Assembly (NCBI RefSeq): GCF_017873855.1
Contig: NZ_JAGGKR010000001.1
Location: 558,001 to 622,000 of the forward strand
Reading direction: 5' to 3'
DNA: 64,000 nt
From: Methanolinea mesophila
Lineage (GTDB): Archaea > Halobacteriota > Methanomicrobia > Methanomicrobiales > Methanospirillaceae
Shown: positions 18,874 through 35,434 of the stretch, piece by piece
How the letters are laid out: each line of letters begins with the position of its first letter
How positions within the stretch are numbered: the stretch's first letter is position 1
The notes under the pieces: model-generated
Seen by the model: the letters and a program-made list of their open reading frames with translations, nothing else
What the model was told of the DNA's origin: nothing
The model's database searches: none
Program-made: the position numbers and the translations under genes

Positions 18874-19024
18874 ATTATTCCTCTAAGTTTGCCCGGGCGG
18901 GAGAAAATCTCTCTTCTTGTTGCCGCGCCATAAATTAGAAGAATTAATGTCTTTCATCGGTAAAATACCAGTGTGGAAATCCACTCCCCGCGAATCCAGG
19001 AGGATTTTCGGGGGATTACTGGTG

Positions 19025-19615
19025 ATGGCGATGATTGAAGATCTGATACTTGGAAATCTGAAATTTCGTGAGAACGACTTTAATGCGAATATCGAGTATT
19101 ACAGGAACCTTGTGCTCGGTCAGAGCCCGGGAGTGCTCTGGATTGGCTGTTCGGACTCGAGGGTAAACCCGGAAAGGATAACAGGGGCGAAACCGGGGGA
19201 AATTTTCGTTCAGAGGAATATCGGGAATATTATCCCCATGCATGACTGGAATTTCGCTACGGTCCTGGAGTACGCGGTCGCGCATCTCAAGATCAGGGAG
19301 ATAGTTATCTGCGGCCATTCCGAGTGCGGGGCAATAAAGGCCCTCGATAAAGACAGCATGGGGGACAGCTACATTCCGCTCTGGCTGAACAATGCCTGCG
19401 ATGCAAAGACCAGGGTCGATGCGAGGATCCCCGTTCCTTCCAATGACGAGGAGAGGAAAGCACGTTCAAAGGAGATAGAGATGGAAAATGTCAGGCTCCA
19501 GATCGAACACCTGAAGACGTACCCCATCATTCGCGCCGCCCTTGCGGACGACAGGGTAAAAATCTACGGGCTCTATTACAACCTTGCCACCGGCACACTT
19601 GAAAAAATAACCTGA
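19025..19615 (+). CDS. beta-class carbonic anhydrase
   Basis: Zinc enzyme interconverting CO2 and bicarbonate. With ATG 19025 it has 196 residues. The zinc site is Cys42 and Asp44 (WIGCSDSRVNP) with His98 and Cys101 (ICGHSECGAIKAL), the classical beta-class set. The C-terminal YGLYYNLATGTLE is also typical. The open frame extends upstream to 18917, but those codons are unlike the family and the preferred start follows GGGGGATT; ATG 19031 is another possibility. In a CO2-reducing methanogen it can supply CO2 for formylmethanofuran or CO dehydrogenase reactions. Its stop codon abuts the end of the convergent redox gene. Confidence 0.93.
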   Translation: MAMIEDLILGNLKFRENDFNANIEYYRNLVLGQSPGVLWIGCSDSRVNPERITGAKPGEIFVQRNIGNIIPMHDWNFATVLEYAVAHLKIREIVICGHSECGAIKALDKDSMGDSYIPLWLNNACDAKTRVDARIPVPSNDEERKARSKEIEMENVRLQIEHLKTYPIIRAALADDRVKIYGLYYNLATGTLEKIT

Positions 19616-20914: not shown

Positions 20915-21036
20915 GGTTATTTTGAGGTGTTCCTGCCGGGTGATCGTGTATCCGGTTGACATTTCCGTCATCCCCGGGGCACCATGCAAAACCCTTTTCG
21001 GGCAGCGGTGGAGATAGGAATACAGGTCAGGTAGCC

Positions 21037-23067
21037 ATGAAGGATGTACAAGATGCCGTTATAAGGGGAAACGAACTGATCGGGGAGAAAATTTCCCGTT
21101 TGCAGGGTGATTTTTTTTACGAGGAGACTGCCTACCACCTGCCGGTGTCCTATGCCCTCACGGGGAGACCCGTCCATTCAGCCGCAGAGGGAAAAGAGGT
21201 ATACAGGGCGGCCGGCGGGAGCTCCCTGGTCGGGACAGAGCTCCTGATCGCATCCGGGGAGGTGCCTCGCCCGGGACCGGAGGAGCCCTACACCGGGTTC
21301 ATTCCCGATGCCGTGCTCAGGAAACTGGGGTACTCGCTGGTCGACGGGTCCATCCTTGGTCTCGCACTGGTTATCGGTTCCCCTGAAACGGGAGATGAAG
21401 CGGCCGGAATTTGTCGTGAACTCCAGGAGAAACTCATGCTCACCTTCCTGGCGGGAAAGGTGGTCCCCTCCCTCGTTGGAAAAGGGGTGAAGGTAGGCAC
21501 CGATTTCCGGCTCGTCCCGCTCGGTCCCGAACCCCTGCAGGCCGTGCACTTCGTGGATATTATCGCCAGGGTCGCCATGATGTTCGGGGGGGTGGCTCCC
21601 GGTGATGCGGACCGTTTGGTCGCCTACGCAAAGGAGCGGGCAAAAGCCTTCGTAATAGTGTTTCCAGGGCTCTCCGATGAGGAGATCGCGTTCGTCGATG
21701 CATTGAAGGCACTCTCGATCCCCCTGATTACCCCCGCGGACTACCAGGGAGAGGGCTGGATAACGGCCCCGCTCGACGACCTTGTCGGCCGCGGGATGGA
21801 GGAGAAGGGGATCAAAGTCAACGTAACCGCGATTCCCATTCCTATGGGGTGTTCACCTGCCTTTGAGGGGAAGAGCATCAGGAAAGAGGAAATGTACGTG
21901 GAGTTCGGCGGGGGGAGGTCCCCGGCATTCGAACTGCTCCGCGAAAAACCCGCAGATGAGGTCACGGACGGGAAAGTGCAGGTGATCGGGCCGGAGATAG
22001 AGGATATGCAACAGGGATCCGCGATGCCTCTCGCGATCCTGGTGGACGTATCCGGGAGATCGATAAAAAAAGAGTACGAACCTGTGCTGGAACGAAGGAT
22101 CCATAACTTCATCAATTACGGGGAAGGCTCCTGGCACGTAGCCCAGCGGGACCTCATCTGGGTCAGGCTGTCTGCCGAGGCGGTGAAGAAAGGAGTGCGG
22201 ATCCGCCATCTCGGGGACCTTCTCGCGGCAAAATTCAGGATGGACTTTCCCGATCTCCTCGATGCGGTGCAGGTGACCCTGATCACCGATGAGAAAAAAG
22301 TGAGAGAAGCCCAAAAAGAGGCCGAACGGGTCTACGAAGAAAGGGATCAGCGTATCCGCGGGATGAAGGACAAGGACGTGGATACTTTTTATTCCTGCAC
22401 GCTCTGCCAGACCTTCGCTCCCAACCACGTATGTATCATCACCCCTGAAAGACCCGCGCTCTGCGGAGCGATCAGCTGGCTCGACGGGAGAATCGCCTAC
22501 GAGATCGCCCCTGCGGGGGCGAACCAGCCGGTAAAAAAGGGCGCGGTGATCGATACCCTCCGGGGGGAGTACGAAGGAGTGAACCGGTTCGTCAAAAAGG
22601 CCTCGCACGGCGAAGTCGACCGCTGTTCCCTGTACGGGGTAATGGAGTACCCCATGACCTGCTGCGGCTGCTTCGAATGTATCGTCCTCATGCTGCCCGA
22701 AGTGAACGGTTTTATGGTGGTGAACCGGGAGTGGAAGGGGGTCACCCCCTCGGGGATGACCTTTTCGACCCTGGCCGGGACGATCGGCGGGGGAGCCCAG
22801 ACCCCCGGATTTGCGGGGATTTCGAAGAACTACATCCTGAGCGAGAAATTTCTCCAGGCGGAAGGAGGAATTGCCCGCCTGGTCTGGATGCCCTCCCTGT
22901 TGCGGGAAGAACTTGGCCCCCGACTGAAAGAAGAGTTTGTAAAGAGAGGGCTTGACGGCCTTTTCGAAAAGATCGCCGATGAAACTACGGCTCCGACCAT
23001 AGAAGACCTTACCGTGTTCCTGATCAGGGTGAAACATCCGGCGCTCGATATGCACCCGCTTATCTGA
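21037..23067 (+). CDS. acsB: bacterial-type acetyl-CoA synthase (AcsB, CODH/ACS alpha subunit)
   Basis: Nickel enzyme that joins a methyl group from the corrinoid protein, CO and CoA to acetyl-CoA, or runs in reverse. With ATG 21037 it has 676 residues. The A-cluster ligands are visible: Cys454, Cys457, Cys466 and Cys476 (YSCTLCQTF, NHVCII, ALCGAISW) for the [4Fe-4S] part, and C543-G-C545 for the distal nickel, with Cys457 as the bridging residue. Archaeal CdhC is about 470 residues; this protein keeps the bacterial N-terminal domain that in Moorella touches the CODH tunnel (AYHLPV, YTGFIPDAVLRKLG, AMMFGGVAPG) and is shorter than the Moorella enzyme by about 50 residues, mainly at the N terminus. 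It is the first of six closely packed genes. Confidence 0.95.
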   Translation: MKDVQDAVIRGNELIGEKISRLQGDFFYEETAYHLPVSYALTGRPVHSAAEGKEVYRAAGGSSLVGTELLIASGEVPRPGPEEPYTGFIPDAVLRKLGYSLVDGSILGLALVIGSPETGDEAAGICRELQEKLMLTFLAGKVVPSLVGKGVKVGTDFRLVPLGPEPLQAVHFVDIIARVAMMFGGVAPGDADRLVAYAKERAKAFVIVFPGLSDEEIAFVDALKALSIPLITPADYQGEGWITAPLDDLVGRGMEEKGIKVNVTAIPIPMGCSPAFEGKSIRKEEMYVEFGGGRSPAFELLREKPADEVTDGKVQVIGPEIEDMQQGSAMPLAILVDVSGRSIKKEYEPVLERRIHNFINYGEGSWHVAQRDLIWVRLSAEAVKKGVRIRHLGDLLAAKFRMDFPDLLDAVQVTLITDEKKVREAQKEAERVYEERDQRIRGMKDKDVDTFYSCTLCQTFAPNHVCIITPERPALCGAISWLDGRIAYEIAPAGANQPVKKGAVIDTLRGEYEGVNRFVKKASHGEVDRCSLYGVMEYPMTCCGCFECIVLMLPEVNGFMVVNREWKGVTPSGMTFSTLAGTIGGGAQTPGFAGISKNYILSEKFLQAEGGIARLVWMPSLLREELGPRLKEEFVKRGLDGLFEKIADETTAPTIEDLTVFLIRVKHPALDMHPLI

Positions 23068-23074
23068 GGTTATC

Positions 23075-24037
23075 ATGACGTTACCATCTTTATTCGAATG
23101 GAACGGGAGACTGAACACCGTCACCATCGGGGCGACCAGGGAAGAGGGGGGGACACGGTCGGTCCGGTACACCATCGGCGGAGACGATGACCTCCCGTTC
23201 TTTTCCGGTACCGCCGGCGGCAGCAGACCCCTGGTGGCATTCGAGATCTGCGACGACCCCGAACTGTGGTCCCCGATCGTCCGGGCCGACGAAGGCGATG
23301 TGATGCACGATACGGGAGAATGGGCCCGGCACGTGGAAAAAGACCATCGGCCGGACCTGATCCGGCTTTATCTGAACAGCACGAGGAGAAGGGGATTTTC
23401 GGATTTTTCCGGGATCCGTCGCACTGTCGAAGCGGTGCTGCAGGCGACCGGGCTCCCCCTTATCATAGAGGGAAGTATCGACCCTGCCATAGACAGCGAC
23501 GTGTTCCAGCGGTGCGGCGAGGCCGCAGAAGGGGAGCGGGTCCTCCTGGGGACCGCGGAGGCGGGTCGCTACCGAAGTATTGCCGCTGCCGCAATGGCCT
23601 ACCACCATCCGCTGATCGCCCAGTCCCCCATCGATATCAACCTCGCCAAACAGCTAAACATCCTGCTCAGGGAGATCGGGGTTCCCCCGGACCGGGTCGT
23701 GATCGACCCCTATACCGGCGCACTCGGGTACGGGTTCGAGTATTCCTATTCGGTCATGGAGCGGATACGCTTCGCCGCACTCAAGGGCGATGGAGATCTT
23801 GCGATGCCGATGATCAGTGCCCCGGTCGATACCCTGAACGTCAGGGAAGTCCGTGAGACTCCGCACGGGGAACAGGGTCAGGCTGCGATAAAGTGGGAAT
23901 ACTGTTCTGCACTGTCAGCAGCGGTTGCAGGAGCGGCCATCGTATGCGTCCGGCACCCCGGGTCGGTCCCCCTGGTAAAAGATTCACTGGCAGGTCTCAC
24001 CGGAAGCACGGTTACAAGACGCCCGGAGGCGCAATAA
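23075..24037 (+). CDS. acsD: corrinoid iron-sulfur protein small (delta) subunit
   Basis: TIM-barrel small subunit of the corrinoid iron-sulfur protein that carries the methyl group to acetyl-CoA synthase. The 320 residues include VAFEICDDPE, RTVEAVLQATGLPLIIEGS, SPIDINLAKQLNILLREIG, the strongly conserved DPYTGALGYGFEYSYSVMERIR and the end with VRHPGSVPLVK. The length corresponds to bacterial AcsD rather than the longer archaeal CdhD. It starts seven bases after acsB and ends two bases before acsC. Together with AcsC it forms the heterodimer that cradles the cobamide. Confidence 0.94.
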   Translation: MTLPSLFEWNGRLNTVTIGATREEGGTRSVRYTIGGDDDLPFFSGTAGGSRPLVAFEICDDPELWSPIVRADEGDVMHDTGEWARHVEKDHRPDLIRLYLNSTRRRGFSDFSGIRRTVEAVLQATGLPLIIEGSIDPAIDSDVFQRCGEAAEGERVLLGTAEAGRYRSIAAAAMAYHHPLIAQSPIDINLAKQLNILLREIGVPPDRVVIDPYTGALGYGFEYSYSVMERIRFAALKGDGDLAMPMISAPVDTLNVREVRETPHGEQGQAAIKWEYCSALSAAVAGAAIVCVRHPGSVPLVKDSLAGLTGSTVTRRPEAQ

Positions 24038-24039
24038 TC

Positions 24040-25383
24040 ATGGCATTAAAAGCCCTGGATATCTACAAGCTTCTCCCGAAGAAGAACTGCAAGGAGTGCG
24101 GGGATCCGACATGCCTCACATTCGCCATGAAACTTGCCAGCGGGAAAGGAGAACTCGAAAAATGCCCGTACCTCGATGAGAACGCACGAAGGGTGCTCGG
24201 GGCATCCACCAGGCCGCCCGTTCAGAAAGTAAAAATCGGCGTGGGTGAACGTTCGTTCACGGTCGGTGAAGAGTTCGTTCTTTTCCGTCATGAAAAGACC
24301 TTTTATCATCAACCCGGGTTTATGCTCGGAGTTACCGACACCATGGAGCCTGAAGAGATCATGCAGAGAGTGATCGAGGTCAGGGACGGGGTCATGGTCA
24401 GGGTGGGGATGGACCTCCGCCTCGACGGGGTGGCGATCCGGAACGTGAGCAGGGACCCGGGGAGGTTTGCCGACGCGGTTTCCGCCGTGGAATCTGTTGC
24501 CGATCTGCCCGAAGTTCTTATCTCGGAGAATCCCGCGGCTCTCGAGGCGGGTCTCGCGATCTGCGGGCATTACAGACCCCTTATACACGCGGCGGACCAC
24601 CGGAACTACAGGGAGTTCTCTGCCCTCGCAAAGAAGTACGGGGCAGGCCTGATCCTGAGAGCTCCTTCCCTCGAAGCCATGTCCGAACTTTCGACGCTCT
24701 GCACCGGGGAAGGCGTACATTCCCTTCTCTTCGACCTCTCCCCGGGTTCGCTTTCGGAATACCTCCGTTCCGCCACCCTTGCCCGGCAGTACGCGATCGC
24801 CAGGGCCCCGCCCCCCCTTGGGTACCCGATTTACTGCGACACTACCGCCTTCGGGGATCCCGAGGCTGCACTGGTTCTCGCGGTCCTGAAATACGGTTCG
24901 GTTATCGTTACGGACCATCTTTCCGCCCCGGCTAAGCGTGCACTGCTGACGCTTCGCCAGAACATTTATACGGACCCCCAAAAACCGATTCAGATCACCC
25001 CGGGACTGTATCGCGTGGGAAACCCGGCCAAGGACGCTCCTGTGCTCCTTACCGTCAATTTCTCCCTTACCTACTTCACCCTCCAGGGCTACCTCGAGGC
25101 AGCCCGTGTCCCCTGTTTCATGCTGGTCGCAGACACGGAGGGCATGTCGGTGCTCACCTCCGTTGCGGCCGGAAAACTGAACGAGACACTGGTGAAGGAC
25201 TCCCTGGCAAGGTTCGGAGTTGACGCCGAGGTCTCCCACAGGACCCTGATCATACCGGGATACGCGGCACCCCTCTCTGGCAGGATAGAAGAGGAGACCG
25301 GGTGGAAGGTCCTGGTCGGCCCGAGAGATGCCGCAGAGATTGCCGAATTCCTGGAGAAGGAGTGGAAACCCACCCATGCCTGA
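24040..25383 (+). CDS. acsC: corrinoid iron-sulfur protein large (gamma) subunit
   Basis: Large subunit of the corrinoid iron-sulfur protein, 447 residues from ATG 24040. The N-terminal [4Fe-4S] domain has Cys17, Cys20, Cys25 and Cys42 (NCKECGDPTCL, then KCPYL); the middle is a TIM barrel, and the C-terminal part (from about 325, TVNFSLTYFTLQGYLEA) is the cobamide-binding Rossmann domain. It accepts a methyl group on cobalt and delivers it to AcsB. The start lies two bases after acsD, and its last eight bases overlap acsV, which suggests coupled translation. No AcsE methyltransferase gene lies beside it, unlike in acetogen clusters. Confidence 0.94.
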   Translation: MALKALDIYKLLPKKNCKECGDPTCLTFAMKLASGKGELEKCPYLDENARRVLGASTRPPVQKVKIGVGERSFTVGEEFVLFRHEKTFYHQPGFMLGVTDTMEPEEIMQRVIEVRDGVMVRVGMDLRLDGVAIRNVSRDPGRFADAVSAVESVADLPEVLISENPAALEAGLAICGHYRPLIHAADHRNYREFSALAKKYGAGLILRAPSLEAMSELSTLCTGEGVHSLLFDLSPGSLSEYLRSATLARQYAIARAPPPLGYPIYCDTTAFGDPEAALVLAVLKYGSVIVTDHLSAPAKRALLTLRQNIYTDPQKPIQITPGLYRVGNPAKDAPVLLTVNFSLTYFTLQGYLEAARVPCFMLVADTEGMSVLTSVAAGKLNETLVKDSLARFGVDAEVSHRTLIIPGYAAPLSGRIEEETGWKVLVGPRDAAEIAEFLEKEWKPTHA

Positions 25384-27277
25384 TGTCACGTTCCTGCCGA
25401 GTTTCCGGAAAACCACGGTCCCCCCCGGAGGCAGTCTCCTGGAGGCGGCGCAGAAAGCAGGAATCCACATGAACGTGGTGTGTGGCGGGCAGGGCAAATG
25501 CGGCAAGTGTGTCGTGTACGTAAAGAGCGGCAGGGTGGAGTTCGACAGGGAGAAGTTCGGGAGGTTTTTCTCGGGGAAGGAGCTGGACGAGGGCGGATGC
25601 CTCGCATGCCAGACCCGGGTGCTGGACGATGTACAGGTCCTGATTCCCGAAAGCTCGCTCATCCAGGAGCAACAGATCCTGATCGATACCAGGGGGCTGA
25701 CCACCGGGTTCTCCCCCTCGGTCTGGAAGTACTACGTGAGTCTCTCCCCACCCACCCTCGAGGACCCGTCTCCCGACCTCACCAGGCTCCTCTGGGGGAT
25801 CGAGAAACAGGGCGGCCCGAAGGAAGGGAAGATCTACGTGCCCCTCGAAGTAATCCGCCGTATTCCCCGGGCTTTACGGGACAGCGGGTGGAAAGTGACC
25901 GGGACCGTCGCGCTCGTTCCGGGCGGCTACCGCCTGATCGACGTGGAGAAGGGTGACTCCAGCCAGAGACTCTATGGCGCAGCGGTGGACCTGGGCACCA
26001 CCACGGTGGTGGTCTTCCTCCGGAACCTTGCGGGGGGGGAGGTTGCGGGGGTGGCATCCAATTACAACCTCCAGATCAGTTGCGGCGAGGATATCCTCTC
26101 CCGGGTAAATTACGCCCGGAAAAACGGGCTTGAAAAACTTCAGGCCCTCGCGGCGGAGAGCATCAATACCACCATTACCGACGCCGCAAACAATGCAGGC
26201 ATCGACCGGGAGGATATCTACGAGGTGGTGGTTGCGGGAAATACCATCATGACCCATATCCTGATGGGGATCGACCCGGCATACATGATCGAGGAGCCAT
26301 ACGTCCCTGTCGTCCGGAGGTACCTCACCTCTGCAGCGAGCAGGGCAGGGCTCGAAGTCGAGGAAAACGCCGGCCTGTTTGTATTCCCCGCAGTCAGTGA
26401 TTTCATCGGGGGTGATATCGTCGCCGATATCCTCGCGTCCGGTATGGCGGAACAGGACGAGGTTTCGCTGATGATCGACATCGGGACGAACTTCGAGGTG
26501 GTGCTCGGAAACAGGGACTGGATGTTCTCATGCGCGGGAGCGGCAGGACCGGCCCTCGAAGGAGGGGAGGTACTCTTCGGCATGAGGGCGAACCCCGGGG
26601 CGATAGAGCAGATCTCTCTCGACCTGACCGACCTTACGCCGGCGTATCGCACGATCAACCACCGGAAACCGAAGGGGATCTGCGGATCGGGGCTGATCGA
26701 TCTCCTCGCAGAATTGTTGCGGGCCTGTGTCATCGACCGCACCGGGAGGATCAACACCGATATCCCCCACCCGAGGATTCGTCTGGGCCCTCATTTTCCG
26801 GAGTTCGTGGTTGCCTGGAAGGAAGAGACCGATATCGGCAAGGATATCGTGATCACCGAGAACGACATCAAGAACCTGATCATGAGCAAGGCCTCGATCC
26901 TTGCCGCATGCAGCACGCTCATGAACCAGGCGGGAATCACCCGGCACGAGATCGCCCATATCTACTTCTCCGGGGCATTCGGGAACTACATCAACAAAGA
27001 GAATGCGGTCATCATCGGGCTCATCCCGGAAGTAGCGAGGGAACGGATCGAGAACATCGGCAACGGGGCGATCGAGGGTGCCAACATCGCCCTGGTGAAC
27101 CGTAAAAAAAGGAAGTTGCTCGACGAGATCGCAAGGAAGATCGCGTACATCGAGCTCAATGCCGAGCCGTCCTTCATGGACGAATACACCAGCAGTACGT
27201 TCCTTCCCCATACAGATCTCTCCACCTTCCCCCTGGTCGAGAAGATCCTCAACGAGTGCCGTGTCAGGAGGAGCTAG
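25376..27277 (+). CDS. acsV: corrinoid protein reductive activator (AcsV/RACo, 2Fe-2S plus ASKHA ATPase)
   Basis: Reactivator that uses ATP and an electron from a [2Fe-2S] cluster to return inactive Co(II) in the corrinoid protein to Co(I). The 633-residue protein starts with a plant-type ferredoxin domain: Cys36, Cys42, Cys45 and Cys75 (VVCGGQGKCGKC, GGCLAC). A linker region follows, then an ASKHA ATPase domain from about 215 with two phosphate loops, GAAVDLGTTTVVVF and LMIDIGTNFEVVLG, and the end part with KGICGSGLIDLLAELL and the conserved IYFSGAFGNYI. The start overlaps acsC by eight bases. Domain order is that of Moorella Orf7 and Carboxydothermus RACo. Confidence 0.93.
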   Translation: MPDVTFLPSFRKTTVPPGGSLLEAAQKAGIHMNVVCGGQGKCGKCVVYVKSGRVEFDREKFGRFFSGKELDEGGCLACQTRVLDDVQVLIPESSLIQEQQILIDTRGLTTGFSPSVWKYYVSLSPPTLEDPSPDLTRLLWGIEKQGGPKEGKIYVPLEVIRRIPRALRDSGWKVTGTVALVPGGYRLIDVEKGDSSQRLYGAAVDLGTTTVVVFLRNLAGGEVAGVASNYNLQISCGEDILSRVNYARKNGLEKLQALAAESINTTITDAANNAGIDREDIYEVVVAGNTIMTHILMGIDPAYMIEEPYVPVVRRYLTSAASRAGLEVEENAGLFVFPAVSDFIGGDIVADILASGMAEQDEVSLMIDIGTNFEVVLGNRDWMFSCAGAAGPALEGGEVLFGMRANPGAIEQISLDLTDLTPAYRTINHRKPKGICGSGLIDLLAELLRACVIDRTGRINTDIPHPRIRLGPHFPEFVVAWKEETDIGKDIVITENDIKNLIMSKASILAACSTLMNQAGITRHEIAHIYFSGAFGNYINKENAVIIGLIPEVARERIENIGNGAIEGANIALVNRKKRKLLDEIARKIAYIELNAEPSFMDEYTSSTFLPHTDLSTFPLVEKILNECRVRRS

Positions 27278-27278
27278 C

Positions 27279-28316
27279 ATGTCGGCACCAATCCCCCCAA
27301 CCGACAGTCTTGCCACGGGAGTGGGTGCACTCCCGCATCTCGACCCCGGTGTCGCCTGCGAGACGGTCCTCTCGATCTACCCTGAAATCCCCTATATCCC
27401 CACGCTTCCGAAACGGGGCATCCGGGAGAGTATCGTCTTTGCAGATTCGGCCCGTCTTCCGGGCGGAGCCATCCGCGAGGGCCGGCTGACGATCGATACC
27501 GCCCGGGACATCCCCGCAGAGATGGAACGGATTTACCTGGACTTCGTGGAGGGCAACCTTGACCCCTACATTCCGACAAAGGAGTTTGCATCGGCATTCA
27601 TCGAGATGCTCGGCCGGGATGTCTCCGGGTGCAGGATACTCAAGTGCCAGGTGACCGGCCCGGTCACCTTCGGGATGCAGGTGGTCGATCGGGACAGGAG
27701 GCCGTTATACTATGACGAACAGTATGCCGACGTGATTTCAAAGATGATCGCGCTCCGGGCGGCAGCGTGCGAATCCGCCATGGCCGGGATACGAGGGGTT
27801 TCCCGCACGCTCGTTGTGGTCAACGAGCCGTACTTTGCCGCGCTCGGGTCTTCCGTCGTGCCCGTCGACAGGGAGATGGTGCGATCGGGCTGGCATGATA
27901 TCGCGTCGAGTGTCCGCGACGGTCTCGGGATCCATTGTTGTGCAAATACCGACTGGGAGTTCGTCCTCTCTCTCCGGCCTTCCCTGCTTTCCTTCGATGC
28001 GTATACCATGGCCGGAGAGTTCATGCTCTATGGCGGTGCGGTGGCAGAATACCTCGAAGCCGGCGGTGTGATCGGGTGGGGGATCGTCCCGGCGGAATAT
28101 GCGGTGTTCACCGGGGTCGACCGCGAGGATCTCTACACTACGTACATGGATATCCGGAAGAGAATGTGCGAGCTCGTGGATCCCTCGCTCTTCGATGCGG
28201 GATCGCTTATCACCCCCACCTGCGGTATTCAGTTCGGTACACCCGAAGGCGCCGGAGAGATCATGAAGACCTCGGCATGGCTCTCCCGGAAGGTTCGCGG
28301 GGAGACAGGCTCATGA
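27279..28316 (+). CDS. folate-independent core methionine synthase (MesB/core-MetE-like)
   Basis: A 345-residue protein of the UROD/MetE-C superfamily, about half the length of canonical MetE and without its N-terminal folate-binding half. The zinc-binding set of MetE is recognisable as His219-x-Cys221 (GIHCCANTD) and Cys315 (PTCGIQFG); Asp240 may stand where MetE has Glu. The N-terminal part has GVGALPHLDPGVACE and IPYIPTLPKRG. Related short enzymes (core-MetE of Dehalococcoides, MesB) take methyl groups from methyl-cobamide or the corrinoid iron-sulfur protein and make methionine. It starts one base after acsV, and its stop overlaps the next gene. A methylcobamide:coenzyme M methyltransferase is the main alternative. 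Confidence 0.78.
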   Translation: MSAPIPPTDSLATGVGALPHLDPGVACETVLSIYPEIPYIPTLPKRGIRESIVFADSARLPGGAIREGRLTIDTARDIPAEMERIYLDFVEGNLDPYIPTKEFASAFIEMLGRDVSGCRILKCQVTGPVTFGMQVVDRDRRPLYYDEQYADVISKMIALRAAACESAMAGIRGVSRTLVVVNEPYFAALGSSVVPVDREMVRSGWHDIASSVRDGLGIHCCANTDWEFVLSLRPSLLSFDAYTMAGEFMLYGGAVAEYLEAGGVIGWGIVPAEYAVFTGVDREDLYTTYMDIRKRMCELVDPSLFDAGSLITPTCGIQFGTPEGAGEIMKTSAWLSRKVRGETGS

Positions 28317-29071
28317 CCCCTTTCACCGTTGCAGTGGCGGGGAAGGGGGGGACGGGGAAGACCACGATCAGCGCCCTGCTCATCGATGCACTCGTACGAG
28401 AGGGAATGATCCCGGTTCTCGCAGTCGATGCCGACCCGAACGCCAACCTCAACGAGGCGCTGGGAATCGAGGTCGCCGAGAGTCTCGGGTCGATGCGGGA
28501 GGACGCGTTCACCCGGAATATCCCCCCCGGGATGTCAAGGAACGAGTATATCGGGCTCAGGTTCAGGAAGGTCCTGGTGGAGGGACGGGGGTTTGACCTC
28601 CTCGTCATGGGGAGGCCTGAAGGATCGGGCTGCTACTGTTTTGCGAATGACCTGCTTTCGTCCTGCATGAGGAGCCTCGAACGGGATTACCGGTTCGTGG
28701 TGATCGATACCGAAGCAGGACTCGAGCACATCAGCAGAGGAACTATCGGACACCCGGACGTGCTGCTCATCGTGAGCGACCCCGGTGCGCGCGGAGTCCG
28801 TACCGTAGGAAGGATCCGGGAACTCGCCCTCTCCCTGGGCCTCGACGGGACCTCCATGCTGACGGTCTACAACAGGATTCGCGGTGACGCACCATATGAA
28901 ACCGCAGGGATACCTCATCCCGCTGCATACATCCCTGAAGACCCGTCAATAACTGATGCCGACCTCAACGGCAGACCTATCACGGGGATCCCCGCGGATT
29001 CTCCCGCACGGGCGGCGGCAGACTCGCTCGCTAAAGTAGTGATCAGGCGATCGGGGCAGCCCCTGAAATAA
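28313..29071 (+). CDS. CooC/AcsF-type nickel-insertion ATPase
   Basis: MinD-family ATPase of 252 residues used in maturation of CO dehydrogenase or acetyl-CoA synthase. The deviant Walker A is GKGGTGKTT near residue 11, Walker B-like DADPNANLNEALG follows, and the nickel-binding Cys107-x-Cys109 motif (GSGCYCFAN) characteristic of CooC is present. Its ATG overlaps the stop of the MetE-like gene (ATGA). Because it closes the acsB operon while a second CooC follows cooS, this copy may serve the AcsB A-cluster (AcsF role); that assignment is inference. Confidence 0.88.
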   Translation: MTPFTVAVAGKGGTGKTTISALLIDALVREGMIPVLAVDADPNANLNEALGIEVAESLGSMREDAFTRNIPPGMSRNEYIGLRFRKVLVEGRGFDLLVMGRPEGSGCYCFANDLLSSCMRSLERDYRFVVIDTEAGLEHISRGTIGHPDVLLIVSDPGARGVRTVGRIRELALSLGLDGTSMLTVYNRIRGDAPYETAGIPHPAAYIPEDPSITDADLNGRPITGIPADSPARAAADSLAKVVIRRSGQPLK

Positions 29072-29080
29072 AATTTCCCT

Positions 29081-29329
29081 TTAAATAGCCTTGCTTATGT
29101 CCTCGAGCTTCTCGATGAAATAGGCGATCCAATCCTGGACTCCCGCAATAAAGGTATTCAGAAGGTTCTCCAGAGAATGAACGAATTGCATCAACGGACC
29201 GAGATCGCCCTCCTGCGTTGGAGTTCCGGTATTGAGCATGATGGTAAGACCTATGATGATCATCAATGCCAGAAGTATCACGACCAGTAACAACGCGATG
29301 AGGAGAATGGTGAACGAACTGGATCTCAT
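29081..29329 (-). CDS. small membrane protein
   Basis: An 82-residue protein with one long hydrophobic N-terminal helix (about 6-33) and an amphipathic C-terminal half (FVHSLENLLNTFIAGVQDWI). I do not recognise a family. It lies convergent to the acs operon, ten bases after its last stop, with only a weak ribosome-binding site, so the annotation rests on hydrophobic pattern and compact placement. Another small membrane gene lies 91 bases upstream on the same strand. Confidence 0.5.
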   Translation of the reverse strand: MRSSSFTILLIALLLVVILLALMIIIGLTIMLNTGTPTQEGDLGPLMQFVHSLENLLNTFIAGVQDWIAYFIEKLEDISKAI

Positions 29330-29420
29330 CTCTTATGGATTCTATTACAGAGCGCGATAAAAAAGATATTTATTGGTGTCTTTGGTCCACTCGCGATCGA
29401 CCGGGGATAAATTTCTTGAA

Positions 29421-29633
29421 TTACGAGTCGGATTCTCGTTTCTTCGCTCTTTCCTTGGAGAGTTCAATCAGCAGCATGACAAACAGGATTATCGAGAACC
29501 CCAGGACTACCAGGACGAGCAGCAACCCGACCCAGAGCATGGTATCCTGAGTGAAGAGGAACCCGACCCAGAGAAGTGCCACAAAACAGATCAGGTAGTA
29601 GAAAATCCAGCTTCTGGAATCCCCAATTTCCAT
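29421..29633 (-). CDS. small two-helix membrane protein
   Basis: A 70-residue protein with two hydrophobic helices (about 9-28 and 32-55) and a charged tail (SKERAKKRESDS). No family recognised. It could be cotranscribed with the 82-residue membrane protein downstream; both sit between the acetyl-CoA synthase and CO dehydrogenase operons and point against them. The upstream sequence is A/T rich (TTAATTATGG region on the minus strand), so a promoter is plausible. Confidence 0.5.
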   Translation of the reverse strand: MEIGDSRSWIFYYLICFVALLWVGFLFTQDTMLWVGLLLVLVVLGFSIILFVMLLIELSKERAKKRESDS

Positions 29634-29798
29634 AATTAAAATAAGTTTATTAACGAGAATTTAATACTTTCTTTATCAATCCTCTGGCGCGCTTTGCTCC
29701 TTAAGCACTCCTTTTTTCACCCGGCCCACTGCCCCGAAGTCGCTCTGATCGCAGCGGGTACATTCTGCTTGATATACCCCTTCCCTCCAAGGACAATT

Positions 29799-30800
29799 AT
29801 GAAAAAATTCGCAGTTCTTGTCATGATGATGGTAGTGCTCATCCTGCCTGGCGGGGTGTCCGCACTGGATGCCAGGAGCGGAGGGGAGGTCGTCATCTCT
29901 TCACCGGTATATGACGATTTGCTTGCCAGCGGGGGGAGCATCACCCTGAATGCTCCCGTGGACAGTGCCATTCTGGCAGGCGGTACGATCGAGGTGAATG
30001 CGCCGGTACGGGGAGATCTGATCGCCGCAGGAGGGACGATCAGACTGAATTCCGACGTGGGAGGGAAGATCGTCCTGGCCGGGGGATCGGTCCTGGTGAA
30101 CGGCAGCGTGGGCACCAATGCGATCGCGACGGGAGGTGAAGTGACCCTTCTTCCGGGAGCAACCGTCACCCGGGATGCCCTTATCTCCGGAGGAACGGTG
30201 AAAAACGAGGGGAATGTCGAAGGGACTCTTACGGTCGATGCGAACCGGTTCCAGGATGAGGGGCGCGCTGGAACCACGAACGTGCACATTAACCAGAATT
30301 CGGGCGCACTCCCGGCGATCGTCGTTACCCTGTCGCTCCTCTTTGCCGCAGGGATGTGTATCCTGGGACTGGTCCTGTTAAAGACGATGCCCGCCAGGTT
30401 TTTTTCTGTCACCCGCGAGGTACGAAAGTCCCCGGTGCTAAAAACGGTGATCGGTTTTATCGGCCTTTTAATCGGGATCGTCGCTCTCGCTATCCTGGCA
30501 ATCACCGTAGTCGGGCTACCTCTCGCGATACTGGCAGGGATGGTGCTCCTCATCGCGGTACTTCTTTCCACCCTCTTTGTGGCATACACCCTGGGAGAGG
30601 TGATCTCAACACGTACCGCTCCCGGATCTGCCGCATGGCAGCGTTATCTCATCGGTTTCGTAATTCTCTATATATTGTTTTATATTCCCTTCATCGGCCC
30701 GGTTATTCTTGTTATTGCGGTGAGCCTCGGGTTCGGTGCATTCCTCTATGCGTTACACGACCAGTGGTCACCGATAATCGGAAGCCCCGAAACAGAATAG
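29799..30800 (+). CDS. bactofilin-like (polymer-forming) exported membrane protein
   Basis: A 333-residue protein: signal peptide (MKKFAVLVMMMVVLILPGGVSA), then about 130 residues of short right-handed beta-helix repeats of the polymer-forming type (GSITLNAPVDSAILAGG, GTIEVNAPVRGDLIAAGG, GTIRLNSDVGGKIVLAGG), then hydrophobic helices from about 165 to the end, including a long Ile/Leu/Val-rich block. The repeat resembles bactofilin but is predicted outside the membrane rather than cytoplasmic. A surface-associated scaffold is a reasonable guess. ATG 29799 is chosen because it gives the signal peptide; an open frame upstream to 29694 is unlikely to be translated. A T-rich tract follows the stop. 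Confidence 0.78.
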   Translation: MKKFAVLVMMMVVLILPGGVSALDARSGGEVVISSPVYDDLLASGGSITLNAPVDSAILAGGTIEVNAPVRGDLIAAGGTIRLNSDVGGKIVLAGGSVLVNGSVGTNAIATGGEVTLLPGATVTRDALISGGTVKNEGNVEGTLTVDANRFQDEGRAGTTNVHINQNSGALPAIVVTLSLLFAAGMCILGLVLLKTMPARFFSVTREVRKSPVLKTVIGFIGLLIGIVALAILAITVVGLPLAILAGMVLLIAVLLSTLFVAYTLGEVISTRTAPGSAAWQRYLIGFVILYILFYIPFIGPVILVIAVSLGFGAFLYALHDQWSPIIGSPETE

Positions 30801-30936
30801 TCCTGACGAACCTTCACTTTTTTTCTCCGGAAAACCTGGAATAGCACTAAATAGGAGATTGTCTATTAGAGTTTTGAGGGATGAAGCAGGTACCCCCACG
30901 GCACGCCGCGTTCTATTACGCAGAGTATCGCCCGCC

Positions 30937-30980
30937 GGATCCCGGCTGCAGGCAACGTGCCTGATACAACCCGGGGTTCC
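30937..30980 (+). promoter_or_regulatory. structured leader upstream of cooS
   Basis: The bases 30937-30945 (GGATCCCGG) can pair with 30971-30980 (CCGGGGTTCC) with one bulged base, enclosing a perfect six-pair hairpin CAGGCA-ACG-TGCCTG (30949-30963). The element ends 34 bases before the cooS start codon and lies in a leader with no recognisable gene. It could be a regulatory RNA structure or a protein-binding inverted repeat. Seen by eye; no energy was calculated. Confidence 0.35.
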
Positions 30981-31014
30981 TGCTTCTTTCGCCAAAAATC
31001 CGGAGAAGATACCG

Positions 31015-32973
31015 ATGCCTGATTACTTTGAAGAGGAGACCAAGAAGAAGAAGGTGGAGATCTCGGAGATCGAGAGGGCAAAGATGTCACTGATGAACCC
31101 TGAACTTATCAGGAGTAAAATTCAGGAACGGACAATCGACGAGTCTGCCAAGCCGATCATCGAGCTGATGCTCAAGGAAGGGATCGAGACCGTCTGGGAC
31201 AGGTTCGAGATCCAGCAGCCTCCCTGCCGGTACTGCTCTGCCGGGCTCTCCTGCAGCAGGTGTGCCATGGGGCCGTGCAGGATCATACCGCCGGTCAGGA
31301 TGCGTGGCGTATGCGGGGCGGACGCGGACCTGATCGTTTCCCGCAACCTGCTCGATACGATCGCCACGGGTGCAGCGGCCCATTCGGATCACGGCAGGGA
31401 TATTGTCGAGACGCTCTATAAAACCTCGATCGGCGAGTCGGACGGCTACGTGATCACGGACCAGAAAAAAATGAACCGCCTGGCCGAAGAATACGGAATA
31501 CCAATAAAGGACAGGAATGAGAAGGAGGTCGCAAAAGATCTCTCGATCGCCATGCTGGAGGAGTTCGGCTCCATTAAGGGCACGCTTACCATGGCCGGAA
31601 GGGCCCCGGACCAGACGAGAGAGATCTGGAAATCAGCCGGTATTGTTCCCCGGGGTATCGACAGGGAGATCGTGGATGCCATGCACCGGGTGCAGATGGG
31701 GGTAGGCGCGAGCTATTCCAACATGATCCTCCAGGGAGCGCGGGCGGCACTCGGCGACGGGTGGGGTGGTTCTATGATGGGGACTGAAATATCGGATGTG
31801 CTCTTCGGCACGCCCCGTATAAACCAGTCTACGGTCAATCTCGCGGTCCTCAAGCCGGACCAGGTCAATATCTCGCTCCACGGGCATAACCCCATTCTCT
31901 CGGAGATGGTGGTGCGGGTCATCGAGGACCCGGAGATCAAGAGCATGGTCGAAAAAGTCGGTGCGAAAGGGATCAACCTCGTGGGGCTCTGCTGTACCGG
32001 AAACGAGCTCCTCATGCGAAAGGGCGTCCCCATGGCGGGGAATCATTTCAACCAGGAGCTGGTCATCGCCACCGGGGCCCTGGAAGCCATGGTGATCGAC
32101 TACCAGTGCATTTTCCCCTCCCTTCCCCGCACCGCGAGCTGTTTCCACACCAAGGTGATCTCCACCAGCGAAAAGTCCAAGGTCCCTGGTGCGATTCACA
32201 TGGAGATCCATCCGGAGAACGCGTATTCAATGGCAAAGGAGATCGTGAAGGTCGCGGTGGAGAACTACCCCAACCGGGTCCCCGAGACGGTGAATATCCC
32301 GGCGAACCCCATGGCGGTGACGGCGGGATTTTCGGTGGAGGCCATAAAAGACGCACTTGGCGGCACCTGGAAACCTTTGATCGACCTAATCGTGGCAGGT
32401 AAGATCAAGGGGGCGGCGGGGATTGTCGGTTGCAATAATCCTAAGATCCAACACGACTACGGGCATGTCAACCTAACCAAAGAACTGATAAAGCGGGACA
32501 TCCTCTGCGTCCAGACCGGCTGTGCGGCCGTTGCCTCAGGGAAAGCGGGACTGATGAAGCCCGAGGCAGCGGACCTCGCAGGACCCGGTCTCGGGCCGGT
32601 CTGCAAAAGCCTTGGCATTCCTCCGGTGCTGCACATGGGTTCGTGCGTCGACAACGCGAGGATCCTGGTGCTGGTCGCCGAGCTCGCGAGGGCGCTCGGT
32701 GTCGGCATACACCAGCTCCCTGTTGCGGGGGCGGCCCCCGAATGGTACTCGCAGAAGGCGGTCTCCATCGGGACGTACTTCGTCGCATCCGGGGTATACA
32801 CGGTCCTCGGGGTCATGCCAAAGATCGCCGGGAGCGAGAACACTATCCAGCTCCTGACCGAAGGCCTGCAGGGTGTGACACATGCACGGTTTGCAGTCGA
32901 GCCGGATCCCTTCAAGGCGGCCGACCTTATCTCGAATCACATCGGAGCACAGCGTTCCGCCCTGGGGATATGA
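31015..32973 (+). CDS. cooS: bacterial-type Ni-CO dehydrogenase catalytic subunit, C-x2-C D-cluster type
   Basis: Homodimeric Ni,Fe CO dehydrogenase of 652 residues interconverting CO and CO2. ATG 31015 follows GGAGAAG; the open frame reaches back to a TTG at 30859 but those codons are unlike the family. B-cluster ligands are Cys80, Cys83, Cys88 and Cys100. The D-cluster region reads PCRYCSAGLSCSRC: Cys71 and Cys74 form C-x2-C, and the usual second ligand before Cys80 is Ser79. C-cluster residues are all visible: His in SLHGHNP, and Cys in LVGLCCTG, DYQCI, IVGCNNP, QTGCAA and MGSCVDN, plus Lys in SQKAVSIG. It is not the archaeal CdhA type. The last bases overlap cooC. Confidence 0.95.
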   Translation: MPDYFEEETKKKKVEISEIERAKMSLMNPELIRSKIQERTIDESAKPIIELMLKEGIETVWDRFEIQQPPCRYCSAGLSCSRCAMGPCRIIPPVRMRGVCGADADLIVSRNLLDTIATGAAAHSDHGRDIVETLYKTSIGESDGYVITDQKKMNRLAEEYGIPIKDRNEKEVAKDLSIAMLEEFGSIKGTLTMAGRAPDQTREIWKSAGIVPRGIDREIVDAMHRVQMGVGASYSNMILQGARAALGDGWGGSMMGTEISDVLFGTPRINQSTVNLAVLKPDQVNISLHGHNPILSEMVVRVIEDPEIKSMVEKVGAKGINLVGLCCTGNELLMRKGVPMAGNHFNQELVIATGALEAMVIDYQCIFPSLPRTASCFHTKVISTSEKSKVPGAIHMEIHPENAYSMAKEIVKVAVENYPNRVPETVNIPANPMAVTAGFSVEAIKDALGGTWKPLIDLIVAGKIKGAAGIVGCNNPKIQHDYGHVNLTKELIKRDILCVQTGCAAVASGKAGLMKPEAADLAGPGLGPVCKSLGIPPVLHMGSCVDNARILVLVAELARALGVGIHQLPVAGAAPEWYSQKAVSIGTYFVASGVYTVLGVMPKIAGSENTIQLLTEGLQGVTHARFAVEPDPFKAADLISNHIGAQRSALGI

Positions 32974-33830
32974 ACCGCGAGAAACTGAATATCAACCAGG
33001 CAGCTGAAAAGATCCGGGACGGCACTCGTGCCAAGCCGGGCGGGCGGCGGATCCTGATCACCGGCAAGGGCGGGGTCGGGAAGACCACTCTTGCCGCGAT
33101 CCTCGCCTGTCTGTACGCCGAGGAGGGAAGAAAAGTGCTCGCGATAGACCAGGACCCCCAGCAAAACCTCGCCTGGTCGCTCGGGTACCCTCCGGACCAG
33201 GCTGGCCGGCTTGTCCCTCTCTCCCGGAATGTGGAGTATATCGCCGAAAAAACGGGGGCGGTGCCCGGTCAGGGATGGGGCCAGCTCTTCAGCCTGGCCC
33301 CCGACGTGTCCGACGTCTTCGGCCGGTTGGGAATCAGGATCCGGGACAATATCTGCCTGCTGGTGATGGGGGGTGTGGAGAAAGCGGGCAGCGGGTGCCT
33401 TTGCCCGGAGAACGCGCTTCTTGAGAGCGTGATCCGGGCAATTCCACTGAGGGATGACGAGGTCATCATCCTCGACACCCAGGCCGGACTTGAGCACTTC
33501 GGCCGTTCCCTCGCGGAAGGGTTTTCAAACGCAATTGTCCTCGCCGAACCGTCGTTCAACGCACTCTCGGTCGCACGTGATGCGGCCCGGCTCGCCCGGG
33601 GACTGGGGATCCGTACCTGTTCCCTGGTGGTCAACAGGGTCAGAGACGAGAGGGACCGTCAGCAGGCCCTGAAGGTAATCGGTCCTTCGCATCCCTTCGA
33701 TGATGTATACTTTCTCCCCGATGACGACCTCGTCCGGAGGACCGAGCCCGATGTCAGCCCCCTCATCGCCGTATCTTCCCCGTATATCGACGCGGTGCGG
33801 CGGATGATCCTCCGGATACCGGGTGAATAA
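32970..33830 (+). CDS. cooC: CooC-type CO dehydrogenase nickel-insertion ATPase
   Basis: MinD-like ATPase of 286 residues cotranscribed with cooS (ATGA overlap), so most likely its dedicated nickel-insertion factor. Features are an N-terminal extension of about 25 residues, the P-loop GKGGVGKTT, AIDQDPQQNLAWSLG, and the CooC nickel motif Cys143-x-Cys145 (GSGCLCPEN). The C-terminal part has DTQAGLEHFGRSL and LVVNRV typical of the family. It is clearly diverged from the other CooC in the acs operon, which carries GCYC at the same site. Confidence 0.92.
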   Translation: MNREKLNINQAAEKIRDGTRAKPGGRRILITGKGGVGKTTLAAILACLYAEEGRKVLAIDQDPQQNLAWSLGYPPDQAGRLVPLSRNVEYIAEKTGAVPGQGWGQLFSLAPDVSDVFGRLGIRIRDNICLLVMGGVEKAGSGCLCPENALLESVIRAIPLRDDEVIILDTQAGLEHFGRSLAEGFSNAIVLAEPSFNALSVARDAARLARGLGIRTCSLVVNRVRDERDRQQALKVIGPSHPFDDVYFLPDDDLVRRTEPDVSPLIAVSSPYIDAVRRMILRIPGE

Positions 33831-33934
33831 CTCCACGGCGCCCGAAGCAGGGTGCATCTCACCAAAGACTTTATTTTTGGGTTTATTGAGGATAATCGAA
33901 AGATATATGGGGACATTTGAAGAACATTCGTTGT

Positions 33935-35434
33935 ATGTGTGCACGCTTTTTTGATCGTTTCTTCAAACCCCGTCCCTATATCGTGGAGAGCCCGCCTCCC
34001 CCCTCCATTTCGCACGGTCCCGGAACCTACATGCCCGAGTTCAAAGTCAAACCTTATTTTCTGGTCGCATCAGTGGAGATGGGCAATACCACCACCAAGT
34101 GCATCCTCACCGGTGTCAACCTTGAGACCGGGATGAGCTACGTGATCAATAAAACGGTAAAGATGAGCCGTGATGTGCGCAAACCGAAACCGGGCGAGAC
34201 GGTCTTTGGTGAGACCCTCGACGGCACCCGGCTCACCCGGGAATCGGTCACCGACCTTGTCCGCGACACGCTCATACAGTGTCTCCAGGAGGCGCATCTC
34301 GAGGTTGAAAAGGATCTTGATTTCGTAGTCCGAAGCACAGGAGTGGTGGCGGCGATGGATTCTCCCGACCAGGTAGGGGATTTCGTGCTCGCCCTGGCAA
34401 GCGGCTGCCTGAACGCGGGGGTGCCTCCGCGGAGAATGACGCCTCCGATGTCCAAGGCCAACCAGCCCCAGAGAGTGCAGCCCTTCAGTTACGCAGATAA
34501 AGTGGTGTTCATCGGCGCCGTAGCGGGGGTCATCCCCCCCGTGGGGAGCACAGGGGTGGAAATGGTAGCCAACGAGATGGAAGGAGAGCTTGCGATGGCG
34601 GGGATTAAGGAGGGTGCGAAGTGGACTCCCGTGGACTTCCGGAACCCCTGCGTCTCCATCGACTTCGGCACCACGCTCGACGGAAGGATCACGAGCGATG
34701 TGACCCCGGATGACCCCAACCCCTTCGCAAAGACCATAGGTAACTTTTGCGGACTGGCAGGGGCAATACCGGACGCGATCGTGAAGGGGACCGGGCTCGT
34801 GGACAGCCAGAGGGGGACCGCACTCGATGTCTTCGGTGACAGGAGCGTGGTCGCGGAGTTCGCGCTCAAGGGTCAGAGCAACGTGGTGAAGGAATACGTG
34901 GACCGGTGCCACGAGCTGATCGATATCCGCGTAGTCCCCCCCGAACGGAAAAGGTTCGGGAGAGTTCCCGTATATGCCGCGGTAGCGAAGGAATCCGGGG
35001 TCGCGTTGATTGGCTGCGATGCGGGGGAGGACGGAAGCAATCTCGAAAAATTAAAAGAGATTGGACATGAAGTGTACCAGAACCACAATCTCTCGCTCCT
35101 GAACGAGGTGATCGATCGCGTATGTGCGAGGATGGCACTCAGGCTGGTCGATGTGACCCGGGAGGAGGGTATGGTGTATCGCAACAGCTCGATAGGATTC
35201 ACCGGAAGAGCGGCAATTTCCGGGAGAAAACCGGAATACATACTCGACGGGATCACCGAGAGGAAACTCTTTGATAATCCGGTGGACCACCTGGTCTTCG
35301 TAGATGATGGCCTTGCGAGGGGCGCTGCGCTCATGGCCCGGTGCATGAACTCTCTCGGAAAACCGAAAAATCCGATAGGCGGAGTCCGTGGTGGGCCGTG
35401 TATCATGCCACGCAGGATTAAAGCAGGAAAGTGA
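33935..35434 (+). CDS. methanogenesis marker protein 14 (ASKHA-type)
   Basis: Protein of 499 residues matching the methanogenesis marker 14 family, found essentially only in methanogens and of unproven function. It shows two ASKHA-like phosphate loops, ASVEMGNTTTKCILT near the start and CVSIDFGTTLDGRIT in the middle, like the ATPase part of corrinoid reactivators, and family stretches GAVAGVIPPVGSTGVE and GTGLVDSQRGTALDVFGD. The start is uncertain: ATG 33935 keeps the FFDRFFKPRPYIVES segment I consider family-like; TTG 33917 and ATG 34031 are in frame. A T-rich region and a TATA-like TTTATTTTT lie just upstream. It follows cooC by about 100 bases, with a small gene directly after it. Confidence 0.85.
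   Translation: MCARFFDRFFKPRPYIVESPPPPSISHGPGTYMPEFKVKPYFLVASVEMGNTTTKCILTGVNLETGMSYVINKTVKMSRDVRKPKPGETVFGETLDGTRLTRESVTDLVRDTLIQCLQEAHLEVEKDLDFVVRSTGVVAAMDSPDQVGDFVLALASGCLNAGVPPRRMTPPMSKANQPQRVQPFSYADKVVFIGAVAGVIPPVGSTGVEMVANEMEGELAMAGIKEGAKWTPVDFRNPCVSIDFGTTLDGRITSDVTPDDPNPFAKTIGNFCGLAGAIPDAIVKGTGLVDSQRGTALDVFGDRSVVAEFALKGQSNVVKEYVDRCHELIDIRVVPPERKRFGRVPVYAAVAKESGVALIGCDAGEDGSNLEKLKEIGHEVYQNHNLSLLNEVIDRVCARMALRLVDVTREEGMVYRNSSIGFTGRAAISGRKPEYILDGITERKLFDNPVDHLVFVDDGLARGAALMARCMNSLGKPKNPIGGVRGGPCIMPRRIKAGK

Follow-up and report, generated by a model that had tools for sequence, protein, structure and literature searches.

A divergent MesB-type protein and probable zinc methyltransferase encoded in the bacterial-type acetyl-CoA synthase operon of Methanolinea mesophila

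Results and Discussion

The window, a 64,000-nucleotide stretch of the Methanolinea mesophila genome (contig NZ_JAGGKR010000001.1, positions 558,001 to 622,000), carries a gene whose product belongs to the MesB-type core methionine synthase family by tree, profile and fold. The protein is probably a zinc-dependent S-methyltransferase whose partner is the corrinoid iron-sulfur protein (CoFeSP, AcsCD) of its bacterial-type acetyl-CoA synthase operon. Homocysteine, suggested solely by family membership, stands at roughly even chances of being its methyl acceptor, because the homocysteine-holding residues are changed across the order and almost every genome also has MesA, which points to a shifted or relaxed specificity.

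The core-MetE of Dehalococcoides uses methylcobalamin, with CoFeSP proposed as the donor (PMC7005905). Price et al. (2021; PMC7857596) described MesB and its operon with acsC and acsD in some methanogens, reported Methanomicrobiales that possess both MesA and MesB, and predicted CoFeSP as the donor. The core of the present finding, methionine made straight from CoFeSP, is thus a published prediction, on which this clade bears. Beyond PMC7857596, we find that mesB tracks the bacterial-type AcsB almost perfectly and that the homocysteine residues have changed throughout the order, the latter being, as far as we have seen, not described there. Our search of the open-licence literature on methanogen MesB and CoFeSP turned up no later work that advances beyond that prediction, nor any reported activity or biochemistry for an archaeal MesB.

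Genomic organization of the mesB-type gene

The open reading frame starts with ATG and translates into 345 residues followed by a stop codon. The AcsV/RACo frame ends at 27277, leaving a one-base gap, and cooC starts at 28313 within the tetranucleotide ATGA, giving a four-base overlap; the earlier note had placed the gene between a corrinoid reactivator and CooC with this very spacing, and the coordinates agree. The operon and the CO dehydrogenase genes are arranged as follows.

20956..23067 (+): AcsB, fused bacterial-type acetyl-CoA synthase alpha/beta (NF040764, 889 bits, above cut-off)
23075..24037 (+): AcsD, corrinoid iron-sulfur protein small (delta) subunit (NF003376, above cut-off)
23893..25383 (+): AcsC open reading frame, corrinoid iron-sulfur protein large (gamma) subunit, predicted methyl donor
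25328..27277 (+): AcsV/RACo-type reductive activator of corrinoid protein, with 2Fe-2S and ASKHA domains (start uncertain)
27279..28316 (+): predicted divergent MesB-clade (core-MetE) zinc methyltransferase, 345 residues; zinc ligands H219, C221, D240 and C315; homocysteine positions A17, T42 (alignment less sure) and N182
28313..29071 (+): CooC-like nickel-insertion P-loop ATPase, overlapping mesB by four bases
30859..32973 (+): CooS, bacterial-type monofunctional CO dehydrogenase (TIGR01702, above cut-off)
32958..33830 (+): second CooC-like ATPase

The true start of AcsB is probably downstream of the TTG at 20956, and that of AcsC is internal to its frame, since the profile match begins at residue 50 (MALKALDIYK). 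AcsV scores 571.6 bits against NF040756, under the model cut-off of 800, and its assignment rests on the RACo domains, which match PF14574 at 2e-101. The gene order acsB-acsD-acsC-acsV-mesB-cooC is common to Methanomicrobiales, Deltaproteobacteria and a Heimdallarchaeon. AcsC and AcsD, which MesB-bearing genomes are expected to encode and often link to mesB, lie here in the same operon.

Several neighboring genes were also recorded. A beta-class carbonic anhydrase at 18917-19615 lies a short way upstream of the operon and could possibly supply it with CO2. Between CooC and CooS, a gene at 29694-30800 appears by eye to be unrelated, with a signal peptide, repeats and membrane segments, and a methanogenesis marker 14 protein (TIGR03285) is encoded at 33917-35434, immediately downstream of the CO dehydrogenase genes. 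The CO dehydrogenase/acetyl-CoA synthase of this genome is of the bacterial AcsB/CooS type only (20956-33830), with no archaeal CdhA above cut-off; 39 MesB-bearing relatives have both the bacterial-type and the archaeal system.

Placement in the MesB clade

The window protein alone matches no Pfam or NCBIfam family, including the models for MesA (NF002119) and MesC (NF004712), and among PDB sequences phmmer and profile searches returned nothing beyond spurious profilin matches. Its placement was therefore taken from relatives, profile-profile comparison and fold. One genome scan revealed relatives at 80 loci with 28-61% identity, in Methanomicrobiales, Methanomassiliicoccales, Chloroflexota, Deltaproteobacteria, Elusimicrobia, a Heimdallarchaeon and others; the full-length identity to members in Dehalococcoidia, other bacteria and Methanomassiliicoccales is 28-38%. 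Among 51 aligned family members, 26 match the methionine synthase model NF002119 (best 7.5e-11) and two match MtbA weakly. Profile-profile comparison against MesA gave a probability of 97% with the zinc residues aligned. The published criterion for MesB asks for 130 bits or more in phmmer against DET0516 (PMC7857596); BLASTP against a Dehalococcoidia relative (L022) as a stand-in for DET0516 yielded 209 bits, which only approximates that criterion.

The AlphaFold model (pLDDT 94, pTM 0.93) aligns to about half of MetE. Structural similarity search using Foldseek demonstrated that its best 24 matches are MetE/MesD structures, several of them with zinc and homocysteine; MetE ranks first, followed by MesD (3rpd) and members of the URO-D family, and MtaA appears at rank 34. 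In a quick tree with MesA, MesC sequences obtained through NF004712 and E. coli MetE, the last on a long branch, the MesB sequences including the window protein form one side of a branch with an SH-aLRT support of 93. A search with the MesB profile recovered no MesC. Model and Foldseek thus uphold the earlier description of a protein with a single catalytic half that lacks the N-terminal folate-binding half, and the proposed phylogeny, run against MesA, MesC and MetE, puts it with MesB. Altogether, tree, profile and fold bear out a short relative of core-MetE/MesB rather than a coenzyme M methyltransferase.

An MtaA/MtbA-type coenzyme M methyltransferase (URO-D family) would share the distant common fold, consistent with the Foldseek match to MtaA, and the HxC..C zinc site. 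However, the window protein has no PF01208 match, only 1 of 51 relatives matches that family (E 0.23), the genome search for URO-D proteins (MtaA/MtbA, PF01208) returned none, and the tree groups the protein with MesB. This assignment is contradicted by the family placement; we rejected it as virtually ruled out.

An invariant zinc site and changes in the predicted homocysteine pocket

The zinc ligands H219, C221, D240 and C315 are complete; three of them, His219, Cys221 and Cys315, had been pointed out previously, and D240 is the fourth ligand that was missed. The four are invariant in 107 relatives, save one row ending before C315, and read H-C-D-C in 83/83 covered Methanomicrobiales sequences.

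MetE holds homocysteine by Ser433, Glu484 and Asp599; the equivalents of Ser433 and Asp599 are mostly, though not always, conserved in MesB, and the Glu484 region is hard to align (PMC7857596). The equivalent residues are Ser, Gln and Asp in MesA and MesC, whereas the window protein has A17, T42 and N182 at these predicted homocysteine positions. The equivalence of A17 to Ser433 and of N182 to Asp599 is the same in MAFFT and hhalign. That of T42 to Glu484 is uncertain, as MAFFT aligns the two and hhalign sets them about four residues apart, yet the Gln-to-Thr difference itself is clear-cut. The absence of the Ser433 and Asp599 equivalents, as read from the alignments, tells against a methionine synthase function rather than against MesB membership.

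We surveyed these positions in 84 Methanomicrobiales sequences from genomes of the order, 82 of which are fully covered for the triad. Ser-Gln-Asp occurs in 0/82 of them, compared to 59/60 MesB from other organisms. Ser is replaced by Ala or Gly, Gln by Thr, and Asp by Asn or Ser; no sequence has Gln at position 42, whereas Ser17 persists in 14 and Asp182 in 8 of 83. Larger MesB trees unite the Methanomicrobiales in a single clade with full support, whose long stem measures about 1.1-1.3 changes per site. Mapped onto the tree, the loss of Gln42 is a single event at the clade base, and the residues at the Ser and Asp positions were altered at least seven and at least four times, respectively; the zinc site changed nowhere. 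Overall, strict constraint acts on the metal site and on the operon, and not on the amino-acid-binding positions. This combination fits either a CoFeSP-dependent methyltransferase that has given up homocysteine for another thiol or a methionine synthase that has rebuilt its pocket.

The loss of substrate residues might also be expected of a non-catalytic protein that scaffolds or maintains the CoFeSP-AcsV complex and keeps its zinc for structure, and MesB homologues of Chloroflexales have been described as non-enzymatic (PMC7857596). Those proteins, however, lost zinc ligands that all 83 covered Methanomicrobiales sequences retain, and here the change hit the substrate-facing residues, not the metal site, which makes such a role improbable.

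Co-inheritance with the bacterial-type acetyl-CoA synthase

Across 199 Methanomicrobiales genomes, mesB is present in 84, almost always in the same operon, which is not chance. The bacterial-type AcsB is likewise present in 84/199, including two fragmented cases. Both genes occur together in 83 genomes and are absent together from 114, with one discordant genome on each side, both of them incomplete bins; MesB occurs in 0/16 genomes that have only the archaeal-type CdhC. The genomes are related and the counts are not independent events, so that the Fisher p of 2e-54 overstates the strength of the association, yet the pattern is plain. In the 75 genomes with both genes on one contig, they are 4.7-8.3 kb apart by match start. 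Two further occurrences were noted: the Methanomicrobiales bin OWC_0083 contains two different MesB copies (L002 and L009), each with AcsV and CooC, which could represent two operons or a mixed bin, and MesB is also found in one family (f7) that belongs to the same phylum but not to Methanomicrobiales (L140, L141 and L142), with Ser-Gln-Asp by eye.

MesA (PF01717) is present in 188/199 genomes and in 83/84 of those with MesB; the single MesB genome that lacks it is a bin of 77% completeness. The M. mesophila genome encodes a separate, intact MesA (G000:C1:1358205, L001; 368.8 against the NF002119 cut-off of 258) with Ser, Gln and Asp in place and Glu as the fourth zinc ligand. Searches of this genome for PF02574 (MetH or BHMT), for MTHFR and for an AcsE-like PF00809 protein found none; the PF00809 matches were a dihydropteroate synthase (FolP)-like protein and one weak DHPS-related protein. 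On these absences we rejected a folate route. With a MesA that has all predicted residues and no PF02574, MTHFR or URO-D protein, methionine need not depend on mesB. The FolP-like gene itself adjoins folD, a bacterial-type folate C1 enzyme, with a cofE-like gene nearby (L122, G000:C1 ~2120688), an arrangement suggesting that some folate chemistry may run alongside methanopterin.

The claim of methionine synthase function is accordingly not supported as it was stated, given the separate intact MesA and the replacement of the residues that hold the amino and carboxyl groups of homocysteine. Of the two observations that the earlier note itself had set against its claim, placement with the coenzyme M methyltransferases was not found; the other, a further complete synthase together with inactivity of this one, is borne out in its first half, as MesA is indeed in the genome.

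A proposed reaction and its methyl acceptor

The protein is likely a CoFeSP-dependent zinc methyltransferase. We propose that H219, C221, D240 and C315 hold Zn2+, which would bind the thiol and activate it to the thiolate; the thiolate would then attack the methyl group of methyl-Co(III)-AcsCD to yield a methyl thioether and Co(I)-AcsCD, and AcsV/RACo would return any Co(II) to Co(I). AcsCD, which the earlier note had named as the donor, is supported as the obvious candidate. Counting against a CoFeSP-linked reaction, the search for proteins that would charge AcsCD from methyl-tetrahydromethanopterin found no AcsE and only one MtrH in the genome. The archaeal gamma-delta component can take methyl groups directly from pterin.

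As to the acceptor, the protein might be a plain MesB methionine synthase that offers an additional path to methionine whenever MesA, which is predicted to rely on MtrA, lacks methyl groups, with the pocket changes being neutral, compensated drift. Family membership, operon and zinc site agree with this, as does the prediction published for methanogens (PMC7857596). Nevertheless, the homocysteine residues were lost systematically, not randomly, and in this clade only, and every complete Methanomicrobiales genome with MesB still has MesA. We judge this explanation to be a serious one that falls somewhat short of an even chance, a weight that overlaps with the homocysteine half of our preferred reading.

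Alternatively, the acceptor could be another thiol, most plausibly coenzyme M, which has no alpha-amino group; the enzyme would then link methyl-CoFeSP to methyl-coenzyme M, and methionine would come from MesA. The complete loss of the Ser-Gln-Asp triad next to an unchanged zinc site, the single loss of Gln42 at the clade base with repeated changes at the Ser and Asp positions, the long stem branch and the absence of a URO-D protein from the genome all accord with such a shift, and the presence of MesA in 83/84 MesB genomes means that methionine synthesis is covered. However, nothing points positively to coenzyme M, Thr and Asn are still able to hydrogen-bond, a few members (STD) keep Ser and Asp, MetE ranks far above MtaA in Foldseek, and the physiological need for the link in a hydrogenotroph is not obvious. 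We therefore regard a different thiol as possible, on the unlikely side. A rather doubtful historical extension is that an ancestor of all or some Methanomicrobiales acquired the bacterial-type operon, and that its MesB then ceased to recognize homocysteine and turned into a methyl-CoFeSP:thiol methyltransferase, for example of coenzyme M; if true, it would directly link acetyl-CoA metabolism to the methanogenic methyl carrier.

For the probable CoFeSP-dependent methyltransferase, the Methanomicrobiales clade is either the best test case for a MesB that tolerates a different homocysteine pocket or an instance of a MesB with a changed thiol substrate, and the automatic label "methionine synthase" may mislead across an entire order of methanogens.

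Comparison with known systems

The window protein most resembles MesB, or bacterial core-MetE, represented by Dehalococcoides mccartyi cbdbA481/DET0516 (PMC7005905, PMC7857596), in length, in the single catalytic half and in the HCC...D...C zinc site with Asp as the fourth ligand. It also shares with bacterial MesB the co-occurrence with AcsCD and the operon with acs genes, at the 28-38% identity seen for bacterial and Thermoplasmatota members. It differs from bacterial MesB in the replaced Ser, Gln and Asp, in the additional MesA of its genome and in the long stem branch.

MesA, the core methionine synthase of methanogens (NF002119), belongs to the same superfamily, has the zinc site and also lacks the folate half, but it shares less than 26% identity, retains Ser-Gln-Asp and uses Glu as the fourth zinc ligand. 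MesC (NF004712) of Methanosarcinales and relatives is a member of the superfamily as well and a predicted user of CoFeSP; nevertheless, it sits on a separate branch of the tree, gives no BLAST match to the window protein and keeps Ser-Gln-Asp. Cobalamin-independent MetE is the best structural match through its zinc- and homocysteine-binding half, whereas it possesses a second, folate-binding half and Glu as the fourth ligand. Finally, the methylcobamide:coenzyme M methyltransferases MtaA/MtbA (URO-D) are similar in a distantly related fold and in a corrinoid-protein donor and zinc thiolate chemistry, both predicted for the window protein, but differ from it in sharing no family-level sequence match.
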